From: Aromatoleum aromaticum EbN1
GTDB lineage: Bacteria; Pseudomonadota; Gammaproteobacteria; Burkholderiales; Rhodocyclaceae
Direction of reading: 5' to 3'
Length of the DNA stretch: 64,000 nucleotides
Assembly: GCF_000025965.1 (NCBI RefSeq)
Contig: NC_006513.1
Location: 2,728,001-2,792,000 of the forward strand
Position numbers and translations under genes: made by a program. The notes beneath the pieces were generated by a model. It was given only the letters and a program-made list of their open reading frames with translations, made no database searches and was not told the origin of the DNA. Below are positions 37,207-43,619 of this stretch, piece after piece. How positions within the stretch are numbered: the stretch's first letter is position 1; each line of letters starts with the position of its first letter.

Positions 37207-37221
37207 TGGCACAGCTCTTGC
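37207..37221 (+). promoter_or_regulatory. Sigma-54 (-24/-12) promoter of the Fap-like operon
   Basis: TGGCAC-AGCTC-TTGC: both core elements match the consensus exactly with the required 5-base spacing. Expected transcription start is near 37233, giving a leader of about 47 nt to ATG 37280, which has GAAGGGGA just before it. Confidence 0.85.
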
Positions 37222-37279: not shown

Positions 37280-38638
37280 ATGAGAAAAACATTGATTTCA
37301 GCCGCGATCGGACTTGCCTTTGGTCTTGCCGGGCAAGCTTGGGCGAATCCGGTGAATACGGTCACGGACACTACCGACGACAACACGCAAACCGCAACGG
37401 CGAATTCGACGCAGAGCGGACCCGGACCACAAGCGAACGAGTATTCGAACGCTACCGATAACACGGATAACCGCGTCGACAACTCGGACAATTCGGACAA
37501 CCGGACGGACAACAACTCCGACAATCGCGTCGACAACTCCGACAATTCCGACAATCGCGTCGACGACAACTCCGATAACCGCGTCGACAACTCGGACAAC
37601 TCGGACAACCATATCGACGACGACTCGGACAATCGCGTCGACAACACGAACAACTCCGATCAGAACAACGACAAGAGCGCCGGCGACAATCGCAACAACG
37701 ACGGCACGGCGCGCGCCGAGGGCTATGGCACGGCCGCGGCGAACAACGGCTCGACCTCGACGGCTACGTTCACCAACGCATTCAATACCACTGAGGTAAT
37801 GGCGATTGCGACCCTCAACGGCACGGTCAGCGGCGTGTCCGTGAGCAACGTCGGCAACATCGCGACAAACCACGGCAGCGCATACGGCGGCAATGGGGCG
37901 GCCGGCGGAGCCGGCAATGGCGGCGACGGGATCGGCGGGAATGCCAATGGCGCGGGCGGTGCCGGCGGAGCAGCCGCAGGTGGGGAAGGTGGCATGGGCA
38001 GCAATGGCGGGGACGGCGCCGGTGGGGCCGCCGCCAGTGGCACTGCGAACGGCGCCACCGGATCGACTGGCGGAAGTGCTTATAGCGCCAACGGGGATGG
38101 TGGCGACGGCAGCGGTGGTGGCGGCTCGGGCAGCGCCAGCAACGGTTCGAGCGGTGGCTCGGGCGTCCCGGGCGGGGAGGGTGGCCTGGCCGGAGGCGCG
38201 GGTAATTCGGGCGACTCGAGTGCGGCCGCCAATGGCGGCAGCGGGACCGGCGGCGCGGGCGGCACGGCCACCAACACAGCGGGCAACGGCGGCAACGGCG
38301 GCACGGCGACCAGCGGCGCTGCGACCGCCGGTAACGGCACTGCCGGCAACGGCGGCAACGGCGGCAACGGCGGCACCAACACGGCCGGCAACGGCGGTGA
38401 CGGCGGCACGAACACTGCGGGTGCCGGAACGGGCGGTGCGGGTACAGGCGGCGCCGGCGCTGCGGGCGGCGCGGGTGGCACGGCGTATGCCGATGCAGGC
38501 GCCTTCAACATGTCCAACACCGTCGGCGGCGGCAGCCTGGCCAACTCGGCCGGCATCTCGATGACCTCGCTGAACAGCGGCATCGGTGCACTCGTGCAGC
38601 AAAGCGCAAACGTTCAGGCCAACCTGACGGTGCGGTAA
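37280..38638 (+). CDS. Secreted Asn/Asp-repeat and Gly-rich protein, candidate amyloid-like fibre subunit
   Basis: 452 residues from ATG 37280 (MRKTLISAAIGLAFGLAGQA), with a Sec signal peptide cleaving after AWA. Residues 63-133 are four near-identical 18-residue units (DNRVDNSDNSDNRTDNNS type). Residues ~155-190 form a hydrophobic beta-prone island (NAFNTTEVMAIATLNGTVSG). Residues ~195-405 are extremely Gly/Ala/Asn/Ser/Thr-rich with GNGG-type repeats, recalling PGRS-type or fibre-forming sequences. The C-terminal ~43 residues return to a beta-prone, Asn/Ser/Gln-rich segment ending IGALVQQSANVQANLTVR. No cysteine occurs. First gene of the sigma-54 operon with a C39 peptidase. The parts suggest the exported structural subunit of a Fap-like functional amyloid or adhesin. 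I do not recognise a named family. Confidence 0.8.
   Translation: MRKTLISAAIGLAFGLAGQAWANPVNTVTDTTDDNTQTATANSTQSGPGPQANEYSNATDNTDNRVDNSDNSDNRTDNNSDNRVDNSDNSDNRVDDNSDNRVDNSDNSDNHIDDDSDNRVDNTNNSDQNNDKSAGDNRNNDGTARAEGYGTAAANNGSTSTATFTNAFNTTEVMAIATLNGTVSGVSVSNVGNIATNHGSAYGGNGAAGGAGNGGDGIGGNANGAGGAGGAAAGGEGGMGSNGGDGAGGAAASGTANGATGSTGGSAYSANGDGGDGSGGGGSGSASNGSSGGSGVPGGEGGLAGGAGNSGDSSAAANGGSGTGGAGGTATNTAGNGGNGGTATSGAATAGNGTAGNGGNGGNGGTNTAGNGGDGGTNTAGAGTGGAGTGGAGAAGGAGGTAYADAGAFNMSNTVGGGSLANSAGISMTSLNSGIGALVQQSANVQANLTVR
37466..37678 (+). repeat. In-frame tandem repeat, 54-bp unit, about four copies
   Basis: Codes for residues 63-133 of the fibre-candidate protein. Units read DNRVDNSDNSDNRTDNNS, then the same with RVDDNS, then with HIDDDS, then a degenerate copy DNRVDNTNNSDQNN. 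Within each unit a shorter DN-S/x-x rhythm recurs every three residues. Third-position differences between copies show it is maintained as protein, not a very recent DNA duplication. Confidence 0.88.
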
Positions 38639-38703
38639 GCAGCACGATCGAGCCGGGGGAGAAGCTTCCCCCGGCTTCACCTTTGCAGTCGAGGAGTGAA
38701 GCC

Positions 38704-39090
38704 ATGAGACAGGTACTGCCCCTGCTGACTCTCGGTATCGCGCTGGCCCTCCTGGCCGGCGGCACCCGCCTCGTGCATGCCGACGACGTCGTGATGCTCG
38801 GGGACGCGCAATCCGTCGCGCTGCAGCGCCCGGCGCAGAGGCTGATGGGCGGGCCTACGGTGGATGACGCGGTGCTTTCGGGGCAGCGCGGTGGCGCCGA
38901 TACGCACATCAGCGAAATACGCGCGGTCGGTTCGATGAGCGAAGTTTCCGTGTCGGATGCCGTCACCGGCTACAACCTGATCACCGAGGGCGCATTCGCC
39001 AATGCGAACATGATGGGAACCGTGGTCCAGAACAGCGGCAACGGCGTCATGATCCAGAACGCGGTAATCCTCAATCTCGAGGTGAAATGA
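38704..39090 (+). CDS. Small secreted protein, candidate minor fibre subunit
   Basis: 128 residues from ATG 38704 (MRQVLPLLTLGIALALLAGG, with GAGGAG upstream); an in-frame ATG 21 bp earlier is less likely. The signal peptide ends near LVHA-DD. The C-terminal 40 residues (NLITEGAFANANMMGTVVQN ... GVMIQNAVILNLEVK) share the TVVQNS-x5-IQ-x4-(I/L)N pattern with the protein encoded at 39803 (TVIQNS-x5-IQ-x4-IN). The ending resembles the Q/N-rich strands of minor curli/Fap-type subunits. Located 65 bp after the Gly-rich protein gene and 10 bp before the C39 peptidase gene, in one operon. No family name is known to me. Confidence 0.78.
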   Translation: MRQVLPLLTLGIALALLAGGTRLVHADDVVMLGDAQSVALQRPAQRLMGGPTVDDAVLSGQRGGADTHISEIRAVGSMSEVSVSDAVTGYNLITEGAFANANMMGTVVQNSGNGVMIQNAVILNLEVK

Positions 39091-39100
39091 CGAGGCCGTC

Positions 39101-39793
39101 ATGAAAGTCCGCCCGCTGTTCTTCATCGCGCTGCTGGGCGCGTCGGTGTGCCAGCCTGCGGCGGCGCAATCCGATCCGGCCAGGATTCTGGGGCCGTCCG
39201 GGAGCAGTTATGCAGTGCCCGTGACGAGCCTGAAAGGGGCGCGCTTCGTGTCGACGCTGCGTCAGCAATACGATTTCAGTTGCGGCTCCGCGGCGGTCGC
39301 GACGCTGCTCACGCATCATTACGACCGCAAGGTCGACGAAGTCGAGGTGTTCAAGCACATGTTCGAGCGCGGCGACCAGGCGAAGATCCGACGCGAGGGT
39401 TTTTCGATGCTCGACATGAAACTCTATCTCGACAGCAGCGGCTTTCGCGCCGAAGGCGTGCGCGCGTCGCTCGACCAGCTTTCCGCGGCACGTGTCCCGG
39501 CAATCGCGCTGATCAGGGAAAACGGCTACGCGCACTTCGTCGTGGTCAAGGGCCTGCGGGCGAAACGCGTCGTCATCGGCGACCCGGCAATGGGGACGCG
39601 CGTGCTCGATCGTACCGACTTCGAACGCTTCTGGACCAACGGCATCCTGCTCGTCATCAACGACCAGCCCGAGCGTGCCCGCTTCGACCGCGACGAGGAC
39701 TGGCGCGTCCGGCCTCCGGCGCCGATCGGGCAGGGGATCGGCGGCAATGCAACGGACGTCCTGCTGCTGCGCCGCGGGCCGATGGATTTTTGA
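39101..39793 (+). CDS. Secreted C39-type (bacteriocin-processing-like) cysteine peptidase, FapD-like
   Basis: 230 residues with signal peptide MKVRPLFFIALLGASVCQPA (cleavage near AAA-QS). The papain-like C39 domain has Gln55/56 and catalytic Cys61 in LRQQYDFSCGSAAVATLLTHHY, His145 in NGYAHFVVVKG and Asp161 in VVIGDPAMGTRVL. Unlike bacteriocin exporters it has no ABC or membrane domain, so it acts on its own in the periplasm. Stand-alone secreted C39 peptidases of this kind are the FapD component of functional-amyloid operons. Here the likely clients are the three secreted neighbours. No double-glycine leader cleavage sites were recognised in them, so the processing target is open. Confidence 0.85.
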   Translation: MKVRPLFFIALLGASVCQPAAAQSDPARILGPSGSSYAVPVTSLKGARFVSTLRQQYDFSCGSAAVATLLTHHYDRKVDEVEVFKHMFERGDQAKIRREGFSMLDMKLYLDSSGFRAEGVRASLDQLSAARVPAIALIRENGYAHFVVVKGLRAKRVVIGDPAMGTRVLDRTDFERFWTNGILLVINDQPERARFDRDEDWRVRPPAPIGQGIGGNATDVLLLRRGPMDF

Positions 39794-39802
39794 GTCTTTT
39801 CG

Positions 39803-40813
39803 ATGATCACTTTGCGGAACAAACGCGTGGCCGGGCTCATGGCGATGCTCGCCGTAGGTGCCGGAATCCCGGAAATTCCGCTCCGGTTGCTGGAGCATGC
39901 GTATGCGGCGGACGATGTGGTCGAAGGTTTCTTCCCTGCACTGTGTGCCGACGACATGCCGCCCGCCGAACTCCTCGCGCTCGCCGACTGGCCGCTGGAT
40001 GCCGAAGGGATCGGCTGCCGGCCCCACCCCGGGGTGCTCGACGCGCTCGCTGCGGCGTCGAACGACGGAAGTCGCCCGGGAACGATATCGCGGCGCCTGG
40101 CCGAATACGTCCTGTCGCTCGATGTTCCGCCTGGAGCCTCCGAAGAGAGTGCGCTGCCGGAGTCCCCGCGGGCCCCGCTCGCGAACGGCGCGAACGCAAG
40201 GCTTCCTGGTGCTGCGGCCGCCACGCCTTTCGCCGTGTCGGCGCCGGATTCGTACCAGTCCGTGCCGCTCGCCGCGCTCGGCGAACCGCTCCCGACGCCC
40301 GCGCCGTCAACCGTAGCGGCGCGCGACCCCGACCTGGAACCGGTCCCTCAGATACTCGTGGAAGGCCGCCCACCCGAGGGCGAGAAGATGCTGTTCTCCG
40401 GTCTGCTGGTCGATGACGACACGCTCGGTGGCCTGCGTGGCGGCTTCGAGACACCGGGCGGACTGGTGCTTTCGTTCGGTATCGAGCGGGTGGTCCTCAT
40501 CAACGGCGTGCTGTCGAGCACGACGACGCTGAACGTCGCCGATCTGAGCCAGCTCGCCGGCGGTGCGGCGGGCCTGCAGGCGCTGCCCGTCGGCACCAGC
40601 GTGGGCCTGATCCAGATCGGGGCGAACAACAGCTTCGATCCGGCCGTGCTCGCCTCCGGCTCCTTCGCGACGGTGATCCAGAACAGCCTCGACAATCAGA
40701 AGATTCAGACGGTCACGACGATCAATGCGCAGGCCAACAGCATGGATATGCTGCGCGCCCACCGACTCGGAGAGTCGTTGAGGAATGCTTTGAACAGTTC
40801 GTTGCTCAGGTGA
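39803..40813 (+). CDS. Secreted protein with C-terminal Q/N motif, candidate Fap-like accessory subunit
   Basis: 336 residues. A hydrophobic segment (residues 8-21) and the sequence HAYA-AD near residue 36 indicate export, although the segment between them is longer than a usual signal peptide. Residues ~110-190 are Pro/Ala-rich and likely disordered. A folded region from ~195 contains LGGLRGGFETPGGLVLSFGIERVVLING. Residues 285-312 carry the TVIQNS-x5-IQ-x4-IN motif shared with the small protein at 38704. Last gene of the operon, 9 bp after the C39 peptidase gene. A strong hairpin follows. Comparable in position to FapE, but I see no clear homology to it. Confidence 0.75.
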   Translation: MITLRNKRVAGLMAMLAVGAGIPEIPLRLLEHAYAADDVVEGFFPALCADDMPPAELLALADWPLDAEGIGCRPHPGVLDALAAASNDGSRPGTISRRLAEYVLSLDVPPGASEESALPESPRAPLANGANARLPGAAAATPFAVSAPDSYQSVPLAALGEPLPTPAPSTVAARDPDLEPVPQILVEGRPPEGEKMLFSGLLVDDDTLGGLRGGFETPGGLVLSFGIERVVLINGVLSSTTTLNVADLSQLAGGAAGLQALPVGTSVGLIQIGANNSFDPAVLASGSFATVIQNSLDNQKIQTVTTINAQANSMDMLRAHRLGESLRNALNSSLLR

Positions 40814-40894: not shown

Positions 40895-42229
40895 TTACAG
40901 CGTGATCGGCATCCGCAAGGTCAGTTGCAGGTCCGGTGTGTCCTCGGTGAGACCGGCGCCGACCGACAGGTTCAAAGTCCGGTTCGGCGCCATGCGGTAG
41001 GAGTAGCCGAGCAGCAGGGTGCCGAGCTGAACGCGCACTGAAGTCGCTGCGGTCTCGCCGTTCTGCTTGACCTTTCCGACCGACAGGTGGTCGTAGCCGA
41101 TGCTGAACGAGGAGCGCTCGTTCAGTGCGAGACCCATGCCGAAGTTGAAACCGAAAGCGCCGCCCGGCTGGACTTCGCCGAGCTCGATGTCGCCCTCGTT
41201 CGTCTTCTGCTTCACGTTGTCGCGCTTGAAGCTGTATTGGTAGCTGACGCCGCCGAAAAAGACCACGGGGTCGGAAGGAATCAGCACCGTCAGGCCCGGC
41301 TGGAGAGAGTAGAACCCCGAGCCGGTCGGAATTTCGGTCTGAAGACCCACTCCCCCGGTCGTCGATCTGATCGTCCTGTCGATTTCGACTTCGAACGGAT
41401 CCGTTCCGGTGCGCGACTTGAAGCGCAGCGACGCGATGTAGTACGGCCGGTCGGCCCCGCCGTCGTTGAGCTGGTACCGGCCGGTCAACTCGATGTCGCC
41501 GATGTCGTCCCCGTCCGTGTCGAATACCTCGGGATTGGCACTTCCTACGGCCACTTCCCGGCTCACGCTCGAATCCCAGCGATAGACGTACGGAATTTTC
41601 GCCTCGAGTTCGAAGCGGTTCGTAATGCCGCGTCGCACGGTCAGCGCCGCGGTCAGTGAGTTGCTCTTGACCTCCCGAACATCGATCAGACCGATCAGGA
41701 GTGCGGGGATGATCGTGTAGCCGATCAGTGCAATGCGATTGCTCGAGGAATACGCATACTGCAGCGAAGGCTCGAGGATCCACGTCCCTCGCGGCGTCAG
41801 CACGCCCGGCTGTTCGAAGATCGGTGCGACCGGGGGCGGGCGGTTGTCGGTGCGGGTCGGCGCCTCGCCGACAGGACGCTGCACCGGTGCCTGGGCGACC
41901 TGTTGCGCGGGCGTGCTGCCTGCCGGGGGCGGCGGCGCGGCGACCGTGGCGGGGATGGCGGGCGCGGCCGGCGGAGAACCTCGGCCGCTGATGCCGCTGA
42001 TGTCCAGCGCACGACGCATGTCGTGCAGTACTGCCTGCTGGCGCGACAGATCCTGCTGCAGCGATTCGATCTGCCGGCTCTGTTCCTCGATCCGCTGTCT
42101 AAGTGTATCGACGCTGCCGTCGAAAGCCGCGTCATCGGCAGCGTGGAGGAACGGGCTCGATGCGGCCAGCACCAGCCCGGCCACGCTGCAGCCCACGACG
42201 GCGCCGGACCGGCGTCCCGAGGTTTTCAT
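40895..42229 (-). CDS. Outer-membrane beta-barrel with N-terminal coiled coil, FapF-like exporter
   Basis: 444 residues. A signal peptide ends near FLHA-ADD (residue 30). A coiled coil spans ~38-75 (DTLRQRIEEQSRQIESLQQD...), followed by a Pro/Ala-rich linker to ~140. A beta-barrel domain of about 12 strands starts near 148 (GTWILEPSLQYAYSSSNRIA) and ends with a short terminal strand (LQLTLRMPITL). The strand patterns ITNRFELEAKIPYVYR, DIELTGRYQL, SSDPVVFFGGVSYQYSF-like and LALNERSSFSIGYDH match the FapF type of outer-membrane amyloid exporter. There, the coiled coil trimerises and gates the pore in the periplasm. Downstream of the VpsR-like activator gene by 49 bp on the same strand and convergent with the secreted subunits. 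Confidence 0.8.
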   Translation of the reverse strand: MKTSGRRSGAVVGCSVAGLVLAASSPFLHAADDAAFDGSVDTLRQRIEEQSRQIESLQQDLSRQQAVLHDMRRALDISGISGRGSPPAAPAIPATVAAPPPPAGSTPAQQVAQAPVQRPVGEAPTRTDNRPPPVAPIFEQPGVLTPRGTWILEPSLQYAYSSSNRIALIGYTIIPALLIGLIDVREVKSNSLTAALTVRRGITNRFELEAKIPYVYRWDSSVSREVAVGSANPEVFDTDGDDIGDIELTGRYQLNDGGADRPYYIASLRFKSRTGTDPFEVEIDRTIRSTTGGVGLQTEIPTGSGFYSLQPGLTVLIPSDPVVFFGGVSYQYSFKRDNVKQKTNEGDIELGEVQPGGAFGFNFGMGLALNERSSFSIGYDHLSVGKVKQNGETAATSVRVQLGTLLLGYSYRMAPNRTLNLSVGAGLTEDTPDLQLTLRMPITL

Positions 42230-42278: not shown

Positions 42279-43619
42279 CTAAAGAACGATTTTCAGGCGG
42301 TCCATCATGCGATACAGCGTCACGCGCGAAATGCCGAGTTGCCGCGCCACTTCCGAAACGTTGTTGCGGTACTTGTGGAGACTGCTGACGATGACTTCCT
42401 TTTCGACTGTCGCACGCACTTCGTCGAGCGTCGGGCCGACGCCGGACATCTCCGGGGGGGCGATGCCCAGGTCGGCGGCGGCGATGAGCTTGGACTCGGT
42501 CATGATCATGGCGTACTGAACGCGGTTGATCAGTTCGCGCACGTTGCCCGGCCACGGGTATTCCCACATCGCATGGACCGCCTCCGAGCTGAAGCCTTTC
42601 ACCTGCGAACTCTTCTGGTGCCGGTTCTGGGCGAAGATCGAATTGGCGAGCAACGGAATGTCGCTGGTGCGTTCGCGCAGGGGCGGCACCTTGAGATGCA
42701 GGACGTTGAGCCGATAGAAAAGATCTTCGCGAAACCGCCCCTGCTCGACGGCGCGCTCGAGGTCGACGTGCGTCGCCGCGATCACCCGCACGTCGACGCG
42801 GATGCGCTGCGTGGAGCCGACGCGCACGATCGTCTTTTCCTGCAGGAAGCGCAGCAGGTTCACCTGCAGATCGAGGGGCAGGTCGCCGATTTCGTCGAGG
42901 AACAGGATGCCGCGATGCGCGGCTTCGATGTTTCCGATCTTGCGCTGGTGGGCTCCTGTGAACGCGCCGCGCTCGTGGCCGAAAAGCTCGGACTGGATGA
43001 GATTCGGCGCAATCGCACCGCAGTTCATCGTGACGAACGGCCAATCCGCCCGGGCGGAATAGCGGTGGATCGCGTGTGCCACGAGTTCCTTGCCGGTGCC
43101 CGATTCGCCGCCGATCAGCACCGGCGCGTCGACACCGACGATCTTGTCGATCTGGCTGAAGAGCTGAAGCATCCTGGCGTGGCGTCCGACCATGCCGAAC
43201 CGGCTGTCGCCTTGCCCGGTTCGAGTCGAGCAGTCCTCGATGCTCTGCAGCATCAATGCCTTGCCGTAAGCATGGCCCAGCGTCACCATCAGCCGCTCGC
43301 GATCGAGCGGCAGCGTGTGAAAGTCGTGGAAATTGCGCAGCACCATCGGCCCGTGCTGCTGGTTGCGCAGCAGATCCTTGCCGAGGATCGCGATCCATTC
43401 GACGTCGTTGGAGATCAACGCTTCCATTTCGCGCGGCGGCCAGGGGTGGGTCGAACTGAAAGCCACCAGCCCGACCAGCGGCGAGCCGGCGGTCAACGCC
43501 TTGCGGGCCTCGTCGATGGATGAAACCACCTGAAGTTCCCAGCCGGTCAAGCCCATGCTCCTCAGGTCGGCGGCCACATCGCCCGTCTGGTCCAGCAGCA
43601 AGCCTTTACGTTTCGTCAT
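42279..43619 (-). CDS. Sigma-54-type activator with VpsR-like receiver-like domain
   Basis: 446 residues, the length of Vibrio VpsR. The first ~125 residues form a receiver-like domain without the usual acidic pocket (KGLLLDQTGDVAADLRSMGL ... VEWIAILGKDL), as in VpsR, so phosphorylation is not expected in the normal way. The AAA+ domain follows with Walker A GGESGTGKE (170-178), GAFTGA in FGHERGAFTGAHQ (required for sigma-54 contact), and a C-terminal Fis-like HTH (NVSEVARQLGISRVTLYRMM). VpsR binds c-di-GMP and controls biofilm genes; a similar role here over the Fap-like operon (sigma-54 promoter 37207-37221) is inference. Unlike VpsR itself, which works with sigma-70, this one keeps GAFTGA. 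Confidence 0.85.
   Translation of the reverse strand: MTKRKGLLLDQTGDVAADLRSMGLTGWELQVVSSIDEARKALTAGSPLVGLVAFSSTHPWPPREMEALISNDVEWIAILGKDLLRNQQHGPMVLRNFHDFHTLPLDRERLMVTLGHAYGKALMLQSIEDCSTRTGQGDSRFGMVGRHARMLQLFSQIDKIVGVDAPVLIGGESGTGKELVAHAIHRYSARADWPFVTMNCGAIAPNLIQSELFGHERGAFTGAHQRKIGNIEAAHRGILFLDEIGDLPLDLQVNLLRFLQEKTIVRVGSTQRIRVDVRVIAATHVDLERAVEQGRFREDLFYRLNVLHLKVPPLRERTSDIPLLANSIFAQNRHQKSSQVKGFSSEAVHAMWEYPWPGNVRELINRVQYAMIMTESKLIAAADLGIAPPEMSGVGPTLDEVRATVEKEVIVSSLHKYRNNVSEVARQLGISRVTLYRMMDRLKIVL

Follow-up and report, generated by a model that had tools for sequence, protein, structure and literature searches.

The closest described relative of the locus considered here is the Fap amyloid system of Pseudomonas, encoded by fapABCDEF. 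FapC contains three conserved repeats; between them run linkers, some 30 to 260 residues long, that are not part of the ordered core (PMC12392863). Conserved segments parted by variable linkers are likewise described in PMC3792158. FapC also carries a conserved CxxC motif (PMC6173800). True fap operons are often without fapA, and FapD and FapF are members of wider protein families (PMC3792158). Pairs of fapD and fapF outside fap operons are reported from five more phyla (PMC6173800), in passages that name no cargo for them.

A locus in Aromatoleum aromaticum resembles Pseudomonas Fap in having a FapF-type channel with a putative N-terminal coiled coil, a Cys/His/Asp C39 peptidase, a FapE-like protein, two secreted subunits of unequal size, and variable linkers between conserved segments. 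Unlike Pseudomonas Fap, its channel falls in a separate FapF clade, its substrate has Gly-rich and D/N-rich linkers and no CxxC motif, and no fapA was found upstream in the window. Loci of this second type have no detectable FapB/FapC repeats, and at 40 of 54 loci fapF and the operon face each other. The substrate probably serves a second branch of Fap-type amyloid secretion, sister to the first, as the principal fibre or matrix subunit; this reading is based on the homology of FapF and FapD, the conserved gene set, the FapF phylogeny, profile links, the arrangement of conserved blocks and linkers, and the sigma-54 site. The secretion route is well supported, and amyloid formation is presumed.

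Gene content, distribution and promoter of the locus

The window, meaning the whole 64 kb stretch of DNA analyzed, contains a four-gene operon encoding, in order, the substrate, a small QNSG protein (the partner), a FapD-like C39 peptidase and a FapE-like protein. The operon converges on the genes for a FapF-type outer-membrane channel and a sigma-54 activator. The features are as follows, with residue numbers referring to the substrate.

37207..37221, + strand: sigma-54 (-24/-12) promoter, TGGCAC-N5-TTGC, 73 nt upstream of the substrate start codon
37280..38638, + strand: substrate gene, candidate secreted low-complexity fibre/matrix protein of 452 aa (ORF, homologues)
37280..37345, + strand: Sec signal peptide, residues 1-22 (MRKTLISAAIGLAFGLAGQAWA, followed by NP), from sequence and strongly kept among homologues
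37346..37450, + strand: N-terminal conserved motif NP.N...NTQTATA..TQ.G..PQANE.S, residues 23-57 (profile match in 63/100 homologues)
37451..37681, + strand: linker 1, residues 58-134, D/N-rich, net charge -16, with 18-residue repeats at 37466-37681
37682..37891, + strand: conserved block 1, residues 135-204 (profile match in 83/100 homologues)
37892..38500, + strand: linker 2, the glycine/alanine-rich body, residues 205-407, 44% Gly (composition)
38501..38635, + strand: conserved C-terminal motif, residues 408-452, ..AGI....NSGIGALVQQSANVQANLTVR (in the substrate gene at 54/54 fully visible loci)
38704..39090, + strand: second secreted subunit (partner), 128 aa, ending VQNSGNGVMIQNAVILNLEVK, with a C-terminal motif akin to that of the substrate (hhalign E 2e-7)
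39101..39793, + strand: periplasmic C39 cysteine peptidase, FapD-like, C61, H145, D161 (Pfam C39 5.7e-25; NCBIfam C39_FapD 6e-42)
39803..40813, + strand: FapE-like secreted accessory protein, 336 aa (profile against canonical FapE, E 4e-4)
40895..42229, - strand: FapF-type outer-membrane channel with an N-terminal coiled-coil-like segment (NCBIfam FapF 1.8e-48)
42279..43619, - strand: sigma-54-dependent activator with a VpsR-type receiver domain (Pfam Sigma54_activat 1.5e-70, VpsR 3e-12, HTH_8)

The machinery is the best recognized part of this set. The peptidase has a signal sequence and its catalytic C61/H145/D161 are in place. The FapF model covers residues 34-441 of the channel, and the solved FapF structures 5o65, 5o67 and 5o68 match its residues 125-442 with E-values to 2e-35. 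A search of the A. aromaticum genome returned this channel as the single FapF relative; there is one FapD-like gene, and another, more distant C39 domain lies elsewhere. Pfam and NCBIfam gave no convincing match for the substrate, the partner or the FapE-like protein (P0001, P0002 and P0004), and no fapA gene was found upstream within the window. AlphaFold gave no confident fold for the partner (51 sequences, mean pLDDT 60) or for the mature substrate (32 sequences, mean pLDDT 40); single amyloid-type chains are uninformative in such models, and these low values neither support nor exclude amyloid. The 128-aa partner would have a FapB-like role.

The same gene order is found in ten relatives, and the nearest named relatives of the channel are from Aromatoleum. 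Within that genus the module is present in 9 of 17 genomes and absent from 8, making it an accessory trait. Genome contigs were also scanned with a FapF alignment and the best 80 loci were considered, chiefly from Rhodocyclales and Burkholderiales with some from Lysobacteraceae. The profile of the C-terminal 45 residues matched the substrate in nearly all of these 80 loci, and also the partner, with weak E-values. Where at least 6 kb could be seen on both sides (54 fully visible loci), substrate and peptidase were found in 54/54, the partner in 52/54 and the activator in 50/54; as the loci had been selected for a similar channel, and some of them had supplied seed sequences for the substrate profile, these counts describe co-occurrence within this branch and not across all bacteria. 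Tandem duplicates or triplicates of the substrate gene occur at seven loci (L038, L051, L054, L057, L062, L078, L099), which suggests mixed fibres or a dosage effect.

The promoter is the sole strict sigma-54 match on both strands of the window. Of 96 homologous genes, 69 have an upstream match to at least 9 of the 11 consensus positions, in nearly every case 73-98 nt before the start, compared with 3.4% of shuffled sequences. This contrast overstates independence, since the shuffled controls preserve single-base composition alone and the genes are related by descent. More telling is that the distance stays fixed from genus to genus. An adjoining sigma-54 activator is also a feature of several canonical fap loci: an apparent sigma-54/Fis-type activator gene adjoins canonical fap genes in L157, L158, L159, L164 and L166, and, in several genera, sigma-54-like sites lie near the first genes of canonical fap loci, at L157:7051, L158:3168, L159:6907, L164:4102 and L170:5905.

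Conserved segments and variable linkers of the substrate

The earlier note, made from the letters of the DNA, had proposed a fibre protein built from an 18-residue Asp/Asn repeat, a Gly-rich body and a beta-prone C-terminus, with no Cys in the sequence. These elements hold. The open reading frame is real, but it begins at the ATG at 37280 with a signal peptide, and position 37466, from which the note had counted, corresponds to residue 63. The body spans 203 aa (residues 205-407, 44% G), with a period-3 Gly autocorrelation of 0.25; the composition check bore out the absence of Cys, which is also missing from 94 of 103 homologues. By simple scales, the last 45 residues are the most beta-prone and the sole net-hydrophobic part. 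The designation as a fibre candidate gains support from the neighboring FapD-like peptidase, FapE-like protein and FapF-type channel, which are kept in many genera. Antisense to the substrate gene there is a 460-aa open frame (37298-38680, - strand), which was dismissed as an apparent side effect of the GC-rich repeats.

Comparison with homologues separates what is kept from what varies. Across eight homologues, with L036 set aside for a frame error, identity to the A. aromaticum substrate is 12-61% in the D/N tract, 40-94% in block 1 and 27-98% in the C-terminal motif, where the lowest block 1 and C-terminal values come from the most distant and poorly aligned homologue (L042). The tract before block 1 is N/D/S/T-rich and usually 28-200 aa long. 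The Gly-rich body is kept in kind, usually with 28-45% Gly, and has a length of about 50-850 aa, usually 200-540. In one Rhodoferax homologue (L072:5030-6877), exceptionally, 431 aa of N/T/K-rich sequence precede block 1 and the body is just 49 aa long, and from these proportions the two linkers seem interchangeable in size. Given such variation in length and sequence, the two low-complexity parts singled out by the earlier note are the variable parts. To judge from these alignments, what evolution has conserved is a short N-terminal motif, a block of ~65 residues and the 45-residue C-terminal motif (AGI..QNSG..LVQQS.NVQANL in the family). This layout of three conserved segments and two linkers parallels that of FapC.

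The D/N repeat itself exists as described, with four 18-mers at residues 63-134 (DNRVDNSDNSDNRTDNNS, DNRVDNSDNSDNRVDDNS, DNRVDNSDNSDNHIDDDS and DNRVDNTNNSDQNNDKSA), three of them close and one degenerate; agreement is 14-16 of 18 positions among the first three and 10 for the fourth. DN does recur in the unit, but every 3-4 residues and not strictly every three. Tandem Repeats Finder reported 54 bp x 3.5 copies (score 237), and matches at an offset of 18 over residues 58-134 numbered 42 of 59, whereas 5000 shuffles averaged 11.5 and never exceeded 25. A repetition so far above chance, in a tract with 58% D+N and a net charge of -16 for which loose cation binding is conceivable, is what favors the repeat as a functional part of the protein, either a Ca2+-binding or a stacked-strand (solenoid) module. 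This reading is nonetheless very improbable. The 18-mer is specific to A. aromaticum: three congeners with a 97-98% identical channel have S/D/N arrays such as SDNSNNSDNSDN, further Aromatoleum congeners carry NQGNNSSTNSADSS-type arrays in its place, other genera have N/T- or N/S-rich tracts at this position, and in the two tandem substrate paralogues of L038 the array is nearly absent. The tract is usually the least conserved region, only 6 of its 77 residues are hydrophobic, and a search of the substrate for an EF-hand or RTX motif (GGxGxDx(hydrophobic)x or DxDxDG) gave no match. Residues 63-133, for which a beta-solenoid had been suggested, have AlphaFold pLDDT values in the 40s and look like a disordered linker, the outcome that the earlier note had named as refuting its idea, in models that, for a single amyloid-type chain, are uninformative. 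With its replacement in close relatives, its low conservation, its lack of a Ca2+ motif and its predicted disorder, the 18-mer does not stand as the working unit. The tract is best read as a fast-changing spacer and is the most dispensable-looking part of the substrate.

Relation to canonical Fap and to other systems

The earlier remark that the protein differs from FapC is right for its sequence, but the accompanying secretion machinery is of the Fap type and ties the system to Fap. Both machinery proteins score below the NCBIfam equivalog cut-offs, the peptidase with 143 of 330 bits and the channel with 165 of 700 bits; the FapF cut-off is very strict, as none of the 369 genomes surveyed from the class reached it. 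The survey gave bimodal FapF scores, with canonical proteins at 300-456 bits and the group of the A. aromaticum channel at 171 or less. A branch with 100/100 support parts canonical FapF from this group in a maximum-likelihood tree. One genome (G072) carries a canonical fap operon and a second-type locus together (L163 and L179), so that both types could be compared within one host.

The secreted proteins are linked to Fap through a series of profile comparisons. By hhalign, the FapE-like family matches canonical FapE at E 4e-4; the score is 31.6, and none of 30 column shuffles exceeded 16.2. The C-termini of substrate and partner (E 2e-7), the partner and the FapE-like protein (E 3.5e-9), and canonical FapE and the FapB/FapC repeats (E 4e-4) are each related clearly above column-shuffled controls. 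The partner is marginal against the FapB/FapC repeats (19.3 vs 19.0 in shuffles), and a direct comparison of the substrate motif with these repeats, made at two alignment depths, shows the expected register without reaching significance (E 0.02, score 13.6 vs 13.1 in shuffles). Since only a chain of short motifs connects the substrate to FapC, their homology is something we infer. Several distant second-type loci (L172, L175, L176, L178, L180, L181, L183, L184, L185) have intermediate substrate ends; for instance, that of L178, GSFANATGI..AQNSGENSLIQQNFTVQAN, lies between the substrate and partner motifs. These ends would be useful bridges for homology tests.

Two further readings concern the identity of the substrate. 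It could be an ordinary FapC orthologue in a canonical fap operon, as its genes run in an order like that of fapB/C-D-E and fapF stands apart, a variation already known (PMC3792158). This is the least credible of the readings: the canonical Fap-repeat profile (E 1e-3) matched nothing in second-group loci and only L044, a canonical fap locus, while canonical FapF forms a separate clade and the substrates have neither FapC repeats nor CxxC, and no fapA was found upstream in the window. A more serious candidate, though still unlikely, is export through the Fap-type channel of a non-amyloid, Gly-rich, hydrated and flexible matrix protein or adhesin, PGRS- or silk-like, in which the C-terminal motif is an export or docking signal only. 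The chain is mostly low complexity, the body has the Gly periodicity given above, AlphaFold found no confident fold, and conservation peaks at the extreme C-terminus, where an export signal is expected. Yet that motif has regularly spaced N/Q like known amyloid repeats, the partner shares it without any Gly body, and block 1 and the N-terminal motif are kept too, beyond the needs of an export tag. A Fap-type fibre subunit is the preferred reading.

Other secreted systems share single features with this one. The FilB/FilC "putative pilus system" of NCBIfam has the same pairing of C39 peptidase and channel, and the comparison covers these two proteins; the peptidase matches FilB with 4.9e-32 and the channel FilC with 1.5e-20, both weaker than the FapD and FapF matches. 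Curli (CsgA/CsgB) offers an analogy in its short motif with spaced N/Q and its pair of secreted subunits. Unlike curli, the A. aromaticum system has a FapF-type transporter and not CsgG, has a C39 peptidase, and has no tandem curlin repeats. The PE_PGRS proteins of mycobacteria show a GGxGG-type Gly-rich composition like that of the substrate, a resemblance that is compositional only; they differ in domains, secretion route and phylum.

Proposed assembly and significance

By analogy with Pseudomonas Fap, the substrate would cross the inner membrane by Sec, for which a signal peptide is seen, and would stay unfolded in the periplasm, where the C39 peptidase, which is presumably required, and the FapE-like protein may handle it before exit through a trimeric FapF-type channel (PMC5557850, PMC12392863). 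Assembly would occur outside the cell, with the 128-aa partner possibly seeding or capping the fibre. Stacking (cross-beta) or export/docking is the likely task of the conserved segments, above all of the C-terminal QNSG motif common to the partner. As the two variable linkers, the D/N tract and the Gly-rich body may govern the fibre surface in its length, hydration and charge, as L1 and L2 do in FapC, and tune surface and stiffness of the fibre (PMC5557850, PMC12392863). The adjoining sigma-54 activator would turn on expression via the conserved -24/-12 promoter.

The literature consulted held no description of the substrate family, no account of it in Aromatoleum and no experiment on it. The locus is best filed as a real, conserved system in which Fap-type amyloid secretion takes a variant form, with substrates of an undescribed family. 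A broader proposal, which is possible but somewhat short of an even chance, is that the family represents a widespread, undescribed class of functional amyloid in Beta- and Gammaproteobacteria, secreted via a sister branch of FapF, with a major subunit in which an interchangeable N-terminal polar-repeat linker and a polyglycine-type body interrupt a short conserved cross-beta core. If this is true, the bulk of the fibre would be a non-amyloid, species-specific coat. For one large branch of fapD-fapF pairs, the analysis offers an answer as to what is exported: a defined family of substrates, recognizable by their C-terminal motif, together with a partner subunit and a sigma-54 switch. The result is a fibre system open to direct testing in Aromatoleum, Thauera, Azoarcus, Rhodoferax, Polaromonas, Variovorax, Massilia and Janthinobacterium. 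Several of these genera are frequent inhabitants of sludge, sediment or soil.
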